Origin: Deltaproteobacteria bacterium
Lineage (GTDB): Bacteria; Myxococcota_A; Polyangia; Polyangiales; JADJMO01
Direction of reading: 5' to 3'
Length of the DNA stretch: 64,000 bases
NCBI GenBank assembly: GCA_025363655.1
Contig: JANYDK010000127.1
Location: forward strand, 1 to 64,000
Position numbers and translations under genes: made by a program. The notes under the pieces are model-generated. The model was given only the letters and a program-made list of their open reading frames with translations, was not told where the DNA came from and searched no databases. Of this stretch, positions 29,052-35,091 are shown one piece after another (positions within the stretch are counted from its first letter, which is position 1; each line of letters opens with the position of its first letter).

Positions 29052-30272
29052 TCAACGCGATCGCCCGCCCCCACGCCGCCCAGCGCGCGGATCGGCCGCC
29101 GGGGCCTCCCCCTTCGCCCCAGGACGCGCCGGACGCTCCGGGCGTGCACCCGCCTTGAACGCCGGCCGCTTCACCGCACCGCCGGTTTTCCCGTATCCAA
29201 CGCGCGCCTCACTGGCACTCTCACGTGCTCGACCCCGTCCCCCCGAACGCCCCGCAGGCGCCTCCCGCGGCGAGCTCTCACGCGCCGGCCCACGTGCACT
29301 CTCACGCCCGCGCCCGACCTCACGCGCGCCCTCGCGCCCGCTCTCACGCACGCGCTCGCGCCCACGCCCGCTCTCACGCCCGCCCTCACGTCCGCCCTCA
29401 CGCCCGCCCTCACGTCCGCCCTCCGCAAGAGCCTTCGCCCTCTCCTCTTCCTTCTCCCTCACCACCCTCCCCACCGGCATCCCCCGCTTCCTCGGCGCGA
29501 TCTCTTCCGCATTCCCCGCCGCGCTCGGATGCCTCGGCACGCCATACGCCTTCTTCATCTCCACGAGCTCTTCCCGCGTGAGCGCGCGCATGTCGCCGGG
29601 ACGCAGCCCCTCGACGGTGATGCCCGCGAACGACACGCGCGAGAGGCGCATGACGCGGAAGCCAGTTGCGTCGCCCATGCGGCGAATTTGCTGATTTCGG
29701 CCTTCTTTGATGGTGATTTCGAACCAGGTCTTGTCGGCCTCGAAGCGGATGAAGGCGGCATCGGCGGGGCGGGTCGGGCCATCGTCGAGCTGCACGCCGG
29801 CGCGCCACTTCTCGATGTCCTCGGGCTGCATCACGCCCTGCACCTTGACGACGTACGTCTTCGGTACTGCGCCCTTGGGGTGAAGCAACCCATCGGAGAA
29901 CGCGCCGTCGTTGGTGACGAGGATGATGCCGCTGGTGTGGAAGTCGAGACGGCCGACCGGGAAGAGGCGCGCGCCCTCGGCCGCTTCGGTGTGGCGCTTC
30001 AGCAGGTCGACGATCGTCGCGCGTCCCTCCGGATCGGAGAGCGTGGTGACGAAACCGCGCGGCTTGTGGAGCGCGTAGTAGACGACCTTCTCGGCGACGA
30101 CGCGCTTGCCATCGACCTCGACGCGATCGTGTCGCGGGTCGGCCTTCGTCCCCAACTCGGTGACGATTTTCCCGTTCACCCGCACGCGCCCCTCGGTGAT
30201 GAGTTTTTCGGCGGCGCGGCGCGAGGCGAGGCCACCACGGGCGAGGATCTTCTGCAGCCTCTCGGTCGACAT
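29052..30272 (-). CDS. RluB-type 23S rRNA pseudouridine synthase with Arg/Gly/Glu-rich tail
   Basis: The product is 406 aa from ATG 30272. The S4 RNA-binding domain (about 1-60; RLQKILARGGLASRRAAEKLI) precedes the catalytic domain with the Asp signature GRLDFHTSGIILVTND and the KEGRNQQIRRM motif. The family converts a uridine in 23S helix 80-93 or 16S to pseudouridine. Residues beyond about 260 form a low-complexity basic tail (GREGG, RES, PARESS units), probably an RNA-binding disordered extension not found in E. coli RluB. Confidence 0.9.
   Translation of the reverse strand: MSTERLQKILARGGLASRRAAEKLITEGRVRVNGKIVTELGTKADPRHDRVEVDGKRVVAEKVVYYALHKPRGFVTTLSDPEGRATIVDLLKRHTEAAEGARLFPVGRLDFHTSGIILVTNDGAFSDGLLHPKGAVPKTYVVKVQGVMQPEDIEKWRAGVQLDDGPTRPADAAFIRFEADKTWFEITIKEGRNQQIRRMGDATGFRVMRLSRVSFAGITVEGLRPGDMRALTREELVEMKKAYGVPRHPSAAGNAEEIAPRKRGMPVGRVVREKEEERAKALAEGGREGGREGGREGGRESGRGRERVRESGREGAREVGRGRESARGPARESSPREAPAGRSGGRGRARESASEARVGYGKTGGAVKRPAFKAGARPERPARPGAKGEAPAADPRAGRRGGGRSR
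29376..29424 (-). repeat. 12-bp tandem repeats encoding GREG units
   Basis: About four CGCCCGCCCTCA/CGTCCGCCCTCA units encode Gly-Gly-Arg-Glu repeats in the pseudouridine-synthase tail. More degenerate units continue to about 29290. Confidence 0.7.
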
Positions 30273-30359
30273 GGCGAGTGCTTCCCCCGGTGAGTTGCGG
30301 TTGGCAATGCGATCTGCGATGAACCGCCCATACCCACCGAAGTGCACAGGAGAAGCGCC

Positions 30360-30731
30360 GTGAGTGATGTCCCGAGCCTGTCGAAAGAGCGCCGCGTCGA
30401 GAAGCCGTGGGGCTACGAAATCATCTGGGCGGAAGCGCCGAAGTACGTGGGGAAGATCCTCCACATCGCCAAGGGTCAACGCCTGTCGAGGCAGTACCAC
30501 AACGTGAAGGAAGAGACGCTCCGTGTGCTCGTCGGGCACATGTCACTCGAGCTCGGCCCGAACGACGCGCGCACCACGCTGTCGATGAAGCCGGGCGATG
30601 TCTTCCACGTCAAGCCGCTCACCATCCACCGGATGATCGCCATCGAAGACACCGACGTGCTCGAGGTGTCGACCACCGAGCTCGACGACGTGGTTCGCCT
30701 GGAAGACAGCTACGGCCGCGAAGGAACCTGA
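30360..30731 (+). CDS. Cupin-domain protein, mannose-6-phosphate-isomerase type II-like
   Basis: The product is 123 aa; GTG 30360 has an AGGAG site 9 nt upstream. It matches the C-terminal cupin of type II phosphomannose isomerase/guanylyltransferase (RVEKPWGYEIIWAEA, LHIAKGQRLSRQYHN, DVFHVKPLTIHRM). His residues in the RQYHN and TIHRM positions fit a metal-binding cupin. It is a stand-alone cupin; the precise substrate is unknown. Confidence 0.85.
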   Translation: MSDVPSLSKERRVEKPWGYEIIWAEAPKYVGKILHIAKGQRLSRQYHNVKEETLRVLVGHMSLELGPNDARTTLSMKPGDVFHVKPLTIHRMIAIEDTDVLEVSTTELDDVVRLEDSYGREGT

Positions 30732-30747: not shown

Positions 30748-31407
30748 TCATTTTCCCGGGTGCTTCTTGCTCGGGCCCGTCCCGATGTCGGGGTCGATCG
30801 TCGGCGTGACGGTCGGCGTGGGCGTCGGCTTCGGCTTCGGTGGGACCCACGTCGGCTTGGGAGTTGGCGTCGGCGTGGGAGTCGGCGTCGGTTTCGGCGG
30901 CGGCGTCTCGACGTGCTCGGACGGGTGCGAGGTGACGTCGGGAGGCGTTTCGACGCCATCGGGCGTCGGCGGTTTCTCGGGCCACTTCGCGCCCTCCCAC
31001 TCTTTCGTCGAGTGGCAGTCCTGACAGGTCGTCGTCGCGTCCTCTTCGTCACCGTGGCCGCGCTCGAAGTCGTCTTCGTGGCACGAGATGCACTTCTTGC
31101 TCGTGCCCTTGAATTTCGCCGGCGTACCGGTGTGACACGCGAAGCAATCGGCGCCGTCGTGTGCCCCGCTCAGCGTCCACGGATGATCGACGACCGACGG
31201 TTTCCACGCTTTCTGCGAATGACAGATGGCGCAGGTGACCGGCTTCACGTCGACGTGCTTCGGCCTCCGCACCTCTTGGTAGTCCGAGAGGTGACAGCTC
31301 GCGCACTCGTTCTCCGGCGCGCGACGATCGACGGGCGTCGCACACGAGGCGAGCAAGAGCGGAGCGATCCATGCGCTCGTGGCGATCGCGAGCGAGCGCG
31401 TTTTCAA
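30748..31407 (-). CDS. Pentahaem c-type cytochrome lipoprotein
   Basis: The product is 219 aa with an unusual TTG start at 31407, which overlaps the oxidase stop (TTGA) and has GAGGAG 5 nt upstream. The signal peptide ends in a lipobox (LLLASC, Cys22). Five CXXCH haem sites (CASCH, CAICH, CFACH, CISCH, CQDCH) lie between residues of about 35 and 132. A Pro/Thr/Lys-rich tail follows (PTPTPTP, KPTWVPP). It is probably a periplasmic or outer-surface electron carrier linked to the upstream membrane oxidase by translational coupling. The arrangement resembles small tetra/pentahaem electron-transfer proteins. Confidence 0.88.
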   Translation of the reverse strand: MKTRSLAIATSAWIAPLLLASCATPVDRRAPENECASCHLSDYQEVRRPKHVDVKPVTCAICHSQKAWKPSVVDHPWTLSGAHDGADCFACHTGTPAKFKGTSKKCISCHEDDFERGHGDEEDATTTCQDCHSTKEWEGAKWPEKPPTPDGVETPPDVTSHPSEHVETPPPKPTPTPTPTPTPKPTWVPPKPKPTPTPTVTPTIDPDIGTGPSKKHPGK

Positions 31408-32813
31408 AATCGCTCCTCGCGGAAGGGCATCTTCCGCTTGCGACAAAGCGCTTCGAGCTTTTGACCGAGGCCGCGCGGTCCGCAGAAGTAGACGTCGACG
31501 GTCGCGGGAGCGTGCTGCGCGACGATGCCATCGAGCACCGTGTCCCAATCGGGATGTCCCATGTGGGTCAGCGTCCGGAGGCCCGTCACGAGGTCGCGCC
31601 GCCCCTCTTCGTGCATGATTTCTCGGGCCATTTCCAGCCCGACGGCGGTCGCGCCGGTGCGTCCGCTGGTCATGCAGAGGTGCACCTCGAGCATCGCCTT
31701 TCGATCGAGCTCTTCGAGATCGGTGAGGAGCGCGGTGAACCACTCGAACGAATATTGATCGCGATTGAGCCAGAAGAAGTGCACCTTCTCGAGCTTCGAG
31801 GGACCACTGCTCGCGCGGCGGACGATGCTCTCGAGGATGCTGGCGAAGGGCGTGACCCCGATGCCGCCGGCGATGAGCACCGCGAAGCGCGACTCGAAGA
31901 CATGCGTCGTCGGCGCGCCATAAGGCCCGTCGATCTTGATTGGCAGCGGCAGCGGCGACTCCTGCGTCTCGCGGAGCTCGATGTGCCGTCGGAGCGCGCT
32001 CGTCCAGTTGCCGAGCGTGCGCACGTGGACGGTGAGATGCTCGTTCTCTGGCGCGTTGCTCAGCGTGAAGGGGTGCCACTCGTGCGCGGCGATCGCCGGG
32101 ATGTTGAGGAAGACGTAGTCGCCGGGCCGCTGCGTCATCTTCGGCGGCCGCTGGATGTCGAGCCGCGTGACCCCGGAGCGCAGCGCCGCGCCCTTCACCA
32201 GCACGCTCCGTTTGCCTCGCCGAAAGAGCCGCACGAGCTGCTCGATGGCAAAGAAAAACAGCGGAATTCCTGCGTAAAACGCGAACGTCGGCGCATGGAC
32301 GAGGACGAGGACGAACCACGCGACATAGAGCAGGTGCGAGAAGTAGAAGAGCTCGAAGAGGCGTGAGCGACGAATCGGCTCGAGCGCGAAGAGCCACATC
32401 ATGAGGAAGACGGCGAGGATGAGCGTGCCGGTGAGGCCCCGCTGCGTGTGGAGGAAGAAGTTCGCGGTCGTCGCGTCGTGATGGCCCGAGGCGTACGCCG
32501 CGAGGAGCGAACCACCGTGGCCGAGCGCGCAGAAGAACATCGTGTGACCGACCCAACGGTGGAAGTCGATCGCGTCGTCGATGGGGAGGAGTCGACCGAG
32601 CCAGGTGGCGCGCACCCAGGTCGAAAGCCGTCGCATCACCGGGAAGAGAATGAGCGCGCCGTCGAGGCTGATGCAGGCGCCGAACGCGCGGCCGAGCTGA
32701 CGAAACGGATCGATGCCGCTCGGGGCCGAGCGCACCATCGAGACGACGAAGACGGCGAGGTGCGCGGCGACGAACATCGTGAGAAAGAGCGCCAGCGCCA
32801 GCCGGTTCTCCAT
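31404..32813 (-). CDS. NOX/ferric-reductase-type transmembrane oxidase
   Basis: The product is 469 aa from ATG 32813. About six membrane helices carry two histidine pairs, H85/H99 and H160/H173, as in two-haem NADPH oxidases and ferric reductases. The cytoplasmic half has an FAD motif (HPFTLSNAP), GPYGAP, an NADPH motif (GGIGVTPFASIL) and a late CGPRGLG motif. Electrons should pass from NADPH through FAD and two haems across the membrane, reducing O2 or an acceptor such as the downstream cytochrome. No ribosome site precedes ATG 32813; the EF-hand frame immediately upstream suggests it is the catalytic half of a NOX5-like protein broken by a frame change. Confidence 0.85.
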   Translation of the reverse strand: MENRLALALFLTMFVAAHLAVFVVSMVRSAPSGIDPFRQLGRAFGACISLDGALILFPVMRRLSTWVRATWLGRLLPIDDAIDFHRWVGHTMFFCALGHGGSLLAAYASGHHDATTANFFLHTQRGLTGTLILAVFLMMWLFALEPIRRSRLFELFYFSHLLYVAWFVLVLVHAPTFAFYAGIPLFFFAIEQLVRLFRRGKRSVLVKGAALRSGVTRLDIQRPPKMTQRPGDYVFLNIPAIAAHEWHPFTLSNAPENEHLTVHVRTLGNWTSALRRHIELRETQESPLPLPIKIDGPYGAPTTHVFESRFAVLIAGGIGVTPFASILESIVRRASSGPSKLEKVHFFWLNRDQYSFEWFTALLTDLEELDRKAMLEVHLCMTSGRTGATAVGLEMAREIMHEEGRRDLVTGLRTLTHMGHPDWDTVLDGIVAQHAPATVDVYFCGPRGLGQKLEALCRKRKMPFREERF

Positions 32814-32825
32814 GAAGCGGGCGAA

Positions 32826-33060
32826 TTACGATGGCGCGCATTCCGGCGAGGAATTCGTCGCGAGCGATGTGTCCGTCACCGTTCTGATCGAGGCAGACGA
32901 GGACGCGTTTCGCGAGATACTCGCTGCGTAGCCCGAGCGCCTTCTGCAGATCGACGACGTCGATGACCGCGTCACTGCCCGCGTGCTTGGCGAAGGCGCG
33001 CTCGAGCGTCTCGAGGAGGCGCACGTCGATCAGCGAGGGTCGCGGGCGGGTGGACTCCAT
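32826..33060 (-). pseudogene. EF-hand domain fragment fused out of frame to the NOX-type oxidase
   Basis: From ATG 33060 about 78 codons encode a helical segment with a clear EF-hand calcium loop (DQNGDGHIARDEF) preceded by a degenerate partner (HAGSDAVIDVVDLQ). The frame does not stop: it runs on, open, through the whole oxidase in a wrong frame and ends only at the cytochrome stop (30748), so a separate EF-hand protein cannot terminate normally. The oxidase frame lies +1 to it and has a TAA at 32828-32826. Either a +1 shift near 32828-32813, an indel mutation, or a sequence error separates the halves. The boundaries given are inferred. Confidence 0.6.
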
Positions 33061-33162: not shown

Positions 33163-35091
33163 CTACGGTTTCAGCCGCGTGATGTAGGACTGGCCGGTTC
33201 CGCCAGGCGGCAAGGCCGGCGTCACCTTCAGATCCAACGCGCCAGCGTAGGTGCCGGCGAAGACGATGTCTCCGTCTGCAGTTCGTACCAATCGACCTGC
33301 CGATTGCTGGACGCCGTCACCGAAAATGCGCTGGCGGGTGGCGATGATTCCCGTCGCCGAGCTCGTGAGTTGCACGAGGAGGATGTCACCCGAGCCTGCC
33401 TGCGTCAGCGGCGCGAGCTTGGAGTCGAAGGTGAACTTCGGCGTCGTCGTGTCGTCCTGCGTGGTGGCGACGAAGGTGAGATCGCCGGCCGGGCCGCGGG
33501 CGAGCGCCATCGGCAGATCGAGGGCGCCATGCGTGACGACGATTCCGGTCGGAAACGTCTGGCCGCGCACCCAAGCGCCCGCCGCGTCGAGCTGCACGGC
33601 GAACGAGCCGGGGCCGGTCAAGTCGTGTCCCGCGATGCGGACGCCGTCTGCGAGAGTGGCGCCCATGGCGAAGACGTCGCCCTCGCTCGTCATCGTGACG
33701 GCGCCGAGTAGCTGCGCGCCTGCCGTGCCGACGTCGACGGTGGAGACGGCCCATCGCTGCTTGAGCGAGCCGTCGAGCGCGAGGAGGAACGCGTCGTCGG
33801 CCTGCGCCTTGGGAAGGCCGGCAAAGGTATCGCTGTATTGACCGACGAGGTACGCGCCGTCTTTGCCGATCGCGAGGGCGCTGACTCTCGTGAACGAACC
33901 GGCCAGCCCGCCGAAGATGGCGACGTTGGAGCCGGCGCCGTCCTTGGCGGCGAAGATGCCGACGGCGACGTCGAGGTCCCCAATGCCGCCGCGGCTGGTG
34001 CCGTCCCACTCGACCGTGTTCGTCACCGTCTGCGCGACGACGAGGTCACCGGCGGCGTTCAGTGCAGCGCCGCCGAACGGTGGGTAGTCGCCGCCGCCGA
34101 GGAAGCGACGCGCGTAGACCAAGGCGCCCGCGGCGGTGTAGCGCGCGAGGTAGAGCCCACTACCGCCGGGGCTCGGGAGCGCAGCGCCGCCTTCGGGTTG
34201 GAAGACGCCGCTCTCGGTGCGTCCGAGGACGAGGATGTCGCCGCTCGGGTGGACGTGGATCGAGTTGACCCATTCGTCGGCATCTCCGCCGATCTGCCGT
34301 GACCAGAGCACGGCGCCGCTCGCCGAGTATTTCACGAGCGCCGTGTCGAGCCCCGTAGCGGTGAGGCTACGTTCGTAGTTGGCAGTGCCTTGGAAGGCGA
34401 AGCTGCCGTAGAGGCTTCCGTCGGACGCGACCGCGACTGCGCCGCCCATGCCGGAGGTCGAGCCGGCCGCGCGCGCCCAAGGATCGGTCGAGATCGCTCC
34501 ATCGCCGTCGGGAACATCGGGAACGTCGGGAGCATCGACGCCAGCGTCACTGCCCGGCTTGCCCGGCGTGCTGCGACGACAAGCGTCGGCGAAGCAGAGG
34601 GTCGAGTCGAGGATGAGGGCGTCCTCGCAGGTGCCGTCGATACATGTCTGGGTCGGGCCGCATTTCTTGGCGACGCAGGAGAGCTTCATGTCGACGGGGA
34701 GCTCGAGCTCGCTGTGCGGGACGAAGGCCAGCGCCCGTCGCGCGAAGATGCAACCCGAAAGCGCCCTTGGATCGGTCGACTGATCGTCGCAAGCGGCCGG
34801 GTCGCCTTGCCCGTAGTCGCGGGCGACGATCTCGATCCCGACGACCTCGCTCTTGTCTCCGCTCGGCAGGACGACGAGCGAGCCGACGCGACCACCGACG
34901 CACGTGGTCGTGTCGACGGTCGCGAGCTTTCCTTTCAGTCCGCCGAGGGAGCCGATTCGGATGAGCGTGTGCGAAGGGTGAGCCGGGTCGCAGGACAGCT
35001 CGGTGTAGACGGTGAGCGTGACCTGGGTCGGCGTTCTGCAGGATCCGAGCAGGAGAAAAAGCAACGCCCCGGACGCGGTCGAGCGAGACAT
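33163..35091 (-). CDS. Large lipoprotein with propeller-like repeats
   Basis: The product is 642 aa from ATG 35091 with a lipobox (LLLGSC). A Cys-rich N-terminal part (CDPAHP...CIDGTCEDA) is followed by an Asp/Pro linker (DAPDVPDVPDGDG). After that come several repeats of a DG/GD-rich beta motif (GGAVAVASDGSLYGSF, HPSGDILVLGRTESG, TMTSEGDVFAMGATL, VRTADGDIVFAGTYAG) that suggest a beta-propeller. Such proteins usually bind ligands at the cell surface. The function is unknown. It is the last gene of the leftward bactofilin-pyrE series. Confidence 0.8.
   Translation of the reverse strand: MSRSTASGALLFLLLGSCRTPTQVTLTVYTELSCDPAHPSHTLIRIGSLGGLKGKLATVDTTTCVGGRVGSLVVLPSGDKSEVVGIEIVARDYGQGDPAACDDQSTDPRALSGCIFARRALAFVPHSELELPVDMKLSCVAKKCGPTQTCIDGTCEDALILDSTLCFADACRRSTPGKPGSDAGVDAPDVPDVPDGDGAISTDPWARAAGSTSGMGGAVAVASDGSLYGSFAFQGTANYERSLTATGLDTALVKYSASGAVLWSRQIGGDADEWVNSIHVHPSGDILVLGRTESGVFQPEGGAALPSPGGSGLYLARYTAAGALVYARRFLGGGDYPPFGGAALNAAGDLVVAQTVTNTVEWDGTSRGGIGDLDVAVGIFAAKDGAGSNVAIFGGLAGSFTRVSALAIGKDGAYLVGQYSDTFAGLPKAQADDAFLLALDGSLKQRWAVSTVDVGTAGAQLLGAVTMTSEGDVFAMGATLADGVRIAGHDLTGPGSFAVQLDAAGAWVRGQTFPTGIVVTHGALDLPMALARGPAGDLTFVATTQDDTTTPKFTFDSKLAPLTQAGSGDILLVQLTSSATGIIATRQRIFGDGVQQSAGRLVRTADGDIVFAGTYAGALDLKVTPALPPGGTGQSYITRLKP

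Follow-up and report, generated by a model that had tools for sequence, protein, structure and literature searches.

NOX enzymes are known as producers of reactive oxygen species. The described systems closest to the locus analysed here are human NOX5 (PDB 6sz5/8u7y) and, listed with it, the domains of cyanobacterial csNOX5 (PDB 5o0t/5o0x). Intact relatives of our gene share with human NOX5 an N-terminal EF-hand domain, a core with six TM segments and two hemes, domains for FAD and for NADPH, and a C-terminal Phe. The EF domain of one such relative, L018, matched human NOX5 residues 5-167 with an E-value of 2e-21, second behind a calmodulin-calcineurin fusion chain only. The copy in the window (the whole stretch of 64,000 nucleotides that was analysed) differs from NOX5 in having neither EF-hands 3 and 4 nor the linker that follows them, while its clade as a whole differs in having a cytochrome gene directly behind the oxidase gene. 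The SpNOX enzyme of Streptococcus pneumoniae is a bacterial NOX core without EF-hands (PMC5676040, PMC11564096), and what remains of the oxidase in the window would be similar to it in domain make-up. In contrast to SpNOX, of which EF-hands were never part as described, the window oxidase comes from an EF-fused ancestor, and its best PDB match is NOX5.

The reading that we favour, at somewhat better than even confidence, is that the window holds a NOX5-like, calcium-controlled gene that was broken by a deletion of ~340 nt and is a recent pseudogene, and that its intact relatives are switched by calcium, with the cytochrome as their likely electron acceptor.

The NOX locus and its broken frame

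The locus lies on the minus strand. Its 5' part (32815-33060) begins with an ATG at 33060 and encodes a degenerate EF-hand 1 (~32982-32947) and a canonical EF-hand 2 (32889-32851, loop DQNGDGHIARDEF), with homology extending up to ~32824. The frame opened at 33060 meets no stop before the one ending at 30748. The oxidase frame is +1 relative to it; it runs from an ATG at 32813 to a stop that ends at 31404 and carries a TAA at 32828-32826. Homology to the oxidase of relatives reaches upstream of this ATG, to ~32825 (FARF), and a purine-rich ribosome site was looked for upstream of 32813 and was absent. The third part of the locus is a pentaheme c-type cytochrome lipoprotein gene (30748-31407), which likely starts with a TTG and has a 4-nt overlap with the oxidase stop. 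The start at 33060 and its open frame to 30748, the offset oxidase start, the TAA and the missing ribosome site had all been reported in a sequence-only reading of this DNA, and all hold.

Two neighbours on the same strand were also inspected. Just upstream of the NOX locus, 33163-35091 encodes a protein of 642 aa that begins like a lipoprotein (LLLGSC); a Pfam search with E-values allowed up to 1 gave no family for it. The product of 29052-30371 resembles, as judged from its translation, an RsuA/RluB-type pseudouridine synthase and has a long low-complexity Arg/Gly/Glu-rich C-terminal tail.

Taken alone, the EF piece of the window gave weak Pfam EF-hand matches (E ~5e-5, below the gathering score). 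The EF domain of L018 matched the same stretch with an E-value of 2.3e-24 and 64% identity. Over 79 residues the window piece was 46-62% identical to same-clade relatives, and its start, MESTRP, corresponds to MDSTRP, MSRTRP or MTDTRP in relatives. Judged by these alignments, the EF stretch is true homology and no chance motif.

Whole genomes from the order and the phylum, together with public genome contigs, supplied the relatives for comparison; the closest was 59% identical. All 28 distinct EF-hand relatives with upstream DNA encode their EF-hand domain and NOX core in one continuous open frame. This bears out the earlier proposal that EF-hand and oxidase belong together in one NOX5-type gene, for which the state of the fused frame in related genomes had been suggested as a check and a conserved separate EF-hand gene named as the contrary outcome. 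In the window copy, the union of an N-terminal EF domain with the core in one polypeptide, on which assignment to the NOX5 type depends, is broken. That the EF-hand protein and the oxidase are two separate functional genes would account for the different frames and for nothing further. Neither a separate EF-hand gene nor independent initiation of the oxidase was seen in any relative compared, and the EF frame runs as far as 30748 before it meets a stop of its own; we give this explanation practically no weight.

The size of the break was assessed against the same relatives. Between the homologues of the last EF residue and the first oxidase residue of the window, clade relatives have 112-116 residues; the window lacks ~113. 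The missing segment corresponds to EF-hand 3, EF-hand 4 and the conserved linker to TM1 (MTRSEAxWIAPNEDLL). Oxidase homology starts directly past the TAA (FARFMENR in the window, FSRLLENG in L018), and in a codon-usage scan the EF coding signal ended at 32830 and the oxidase signal started at 32825, a switch within 5 nt. The junction thus appears to be an out-of-frame deletion of ~338-350 nt (2 modulo 3) at ~32830-32824, relative to all clade relatives. As a control for the frame break, 15 adjacent same-strand gene pairs within the window were compared. In the EF/oxidase pair alone, the upstream frame runs on past the switch without a nearby stop, with an overrun of 2082 nt as compared with 30 nt or less in the other 14 pairs.

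The sequence-only reading had offered two ways of accounting for the offset, an indel or read error and +1 frameshifting. A one-base indel or error was rejected, since relatives carry 112-116 extra residues at the site and some 340 nt are gone. Programmed +1 frameshifting would join the EF-hand to the oxidase, and the overlap of the two frames and the lack of stops in the upstream one are in its favour. We nevertheless regard it as highly improbable. Every relative stays in one frame across this region, and as none of them has the junction, a conserved shift site is impossible. The shifted product would still be without EF-hands 3 and 4 and the linker, and the RNA at the junction is not specially structured (z 0.25), revealing no stimulatory structure. 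That the EF frame stays open across the oxidase carries no significance in itself, because alternative frames are commonly open in this GC-rich clade: among 18 relatives with a near-full-length match, the corresponding frame had 0-5 stops, and none at all in seven. Its length was therefore rejected as evidence of readthrough and is seen as a by-product of base composition.

The missing segment was searched for in the 9.03-Mb assembly and was not found elsewhere, and its relocation within the genome was accordingly rejected. Slippage between direct repeats was rejected as well, the repeats at the deletion ends in 13 relatives being none clearly longer than in random pairs.

A different origin of the gap is that the organism has an intact fused gene, from which ~340 nt were dropped in assembly. 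Both surviving frames are undamaged, the genome is a draft of 150 contigs, and in L031, a further NOX of this family, the break is just an NN assembly gap (L031 1692-1703), on which ground it was rejected as a second naturally broken NOX. Against an artefact, there is no N at the window junction, relatives have no direct repeat exceeding random pairs at either end, and a comparable break occurs in no other gene pair of the window. We consider an artefact unlikely, at a chance of roughly one in five.

The oxidase core and the fate of the window copy

The NOX core (31404-32813, 469 aa) extends from TM1 to the C-terminal Phe. Ferric_reduct, PF08022 and PF08030 scored above the Pfam cutoff, and the FAD- and NAD(P)H-binding domains (FAD_binding_8 and NAD_binding_6) are fused to the TM domain, with the motifs HPFT and GGIGVTPF present. 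TM3 and TM5 each contribute two heme histidines, and these four have the NOX spacing in the window and in relatives; the core aligned with human NOX5 and DUOX1. The best PDB matches were NOX5 and a putative ferric reductase (5o0x, 8cak), which we take to be the dehydrogenase domain of cyanobacterial NOX5.

This completeness raises the question of whether the deletion, if real, left a working enzyme, EF-less and calcium-independent like SpNOX, translated from the ATG at 32813 and still coupled to the cytochrome. The reading frame has the entire core with every heme ligand and nucleotide motif, and the cytochrome frame is intact. Several observations argue against such an enzyme: 32813 is not preceded by a ribosome site, the upstream frame does not end close by and so allows no stop-start coupling, and the EF domain is kept in every relative. 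We judge it improbable, though more likely than the explanations by frameshifting or by two genes.

We conclude that the window copy is probably a deletion mutant turning into a pseudogene, or an assembly error. If the deletion is real, decay is the most likely outcome, given the patchy presence of the gene, the missing ribosome site and the upstream frame that runs on. Within the order, 26 of 184 genomes carry the gene, and this patchiness makes its loss plausible. The undamaged remainder of both frames suggests that the pseudogene is recent, although the deletion cannot be dated from a closest relative of 59% identity. A wholly intact oxidase frame also counts against decay, since it would not survive in a pseudogene of any age.

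On the favoured reading, the locus descends from a single NOX5-like gene, whose product had four EF-hands in its N-terminal domain, and from the overlapping gene of the pentaheme cytochrome lipoprotein behind it. Comparison with relatives shows that ~340 nt, no multiple of three, are missing; EF-hands 3 and 4 and the linker to TM1 are gone with them, and the two ends are in different frames. Translation from 33060 would yield EF-hands 1 and 2 with an arginine-rich nonsense tail, and no calcium-regulated enzyme would be made from the window copy.

The cytochrome partner and the loss of His-119

A gene for a multi-heme c-type cytochrome lies directly behind the NOX gene in all 18 clade members, that is, the window and the 17 relatives with downstream DNA (L018, L003, L005, L016 and L024 are among these loci, and two of the 18 end at a contig edge after two CxxCH). 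In ten of the 18 the NOX stop and the cytochrome start overlap as TGATG. Like small multi-heme cytochromes of the Cytochrome_C7 type (PF14522), the partners are rich in CxxCH, and they score above the PF14522 cutoff. They differ from that type in five CxxCH that are invariant in 15 aligned proteins, some of which have eight, in a lipobox (14 of the 15) and in their fixed place behind a NOX gene. Related multi-heme modules are present also in genomes without a clade NOX. In the literature collection that was searched, neither a pairing of a NOX with a multi-heme cytochrome nor a myxobacterial EF-hand NOX was found.

His-119 of NOX2 is one of four residues marking NOX enzymes that generate reactive oxygen species (Zhang et al., PMC3591440). 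The window oxidase has the equivalents of the other three, His-101, Thr-178 and Gly-179 (H, T, G). At the His-119 position, four residues past the second heme histidine of TM3 (window ~32515-32500), it has Leu, so that the four-residue signature is incomplete. Other clade members have Leu, Phe, Tyr or Val there, in contrast to human NOX5 and DUOX1, in which the residue is His.

The histidine is kept in nine sister EF-hand NOX (L040, L041, L010-L014, L028 and L029), two of them at 48-49% identity, and none of the nine has the cytochrome gene behind it. In a maximum-likelihood tree, the loss of His-119 and the change in the cytochrome trait fall on one branch (support 95/99). The loss and the pairing thus count as a single evolutionary event; the correlation has n = 1, even if it was kept through 18 lineages.

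L078 and L079 (with L080 and L081) are distant, solitary NOX-like proteins of ~30% identity without EF-hands. In L078 and L079 the His-119 position is occupied by Tyr and no cytochrome gene lies downstream; the idea that loss of the histidine strictly predicts a cytochrome partner was therefore rejected.

Possible electron export by intact relatives

The cytochrome gene always follows the NOX gene in intact relatives, which suggests that electrons are passed to the cytochrome and not only to oxygen. By analogy with NOX biochemistry, calcium binding to the EF domain would activate the enzyme, so that NADPH passes hydride to FAD, and electrons would then cross the membrane via the two b hemes to the periplasmic side. 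There, the co-encoded multi-heme lipoprotein cytochrome would be a likely acceptor, and oxygen the other candidate. The clade may therefore consist of calcium-gated NADPH-to-cytochrome electron exporters that have given up the oxygen-site histidine and no longer make superoxide as their main product; we put this forward tentatively, at clearly less than even confidence.

Support for export comes from SpNOX, for which direct reduction of cytochrome c is reported, under argon as well; the same paper suggests that bacterial NOX may have other acceptors, and names no natural partner there (PMC5676040). Caution comes from the same enzyme, as SpNOX makes superoxide and the oxygen sites proposed for it are other residues (PMC11564096), and from L078 and L079, which have neither the histidine nor the cytochrome.

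The broken copy itself reflects gene decay or an assembly error, and it is the intact relatives that hold the interest. They form an entire clade of EF-hand NOX with one candidate partner gene fixed behind them, and the oxygen-site histidine was lost on the same branch. If the exporter reading is true, these relatives would provide a concrete system for testing the NOX fold as a calcium-switched electron exporter.
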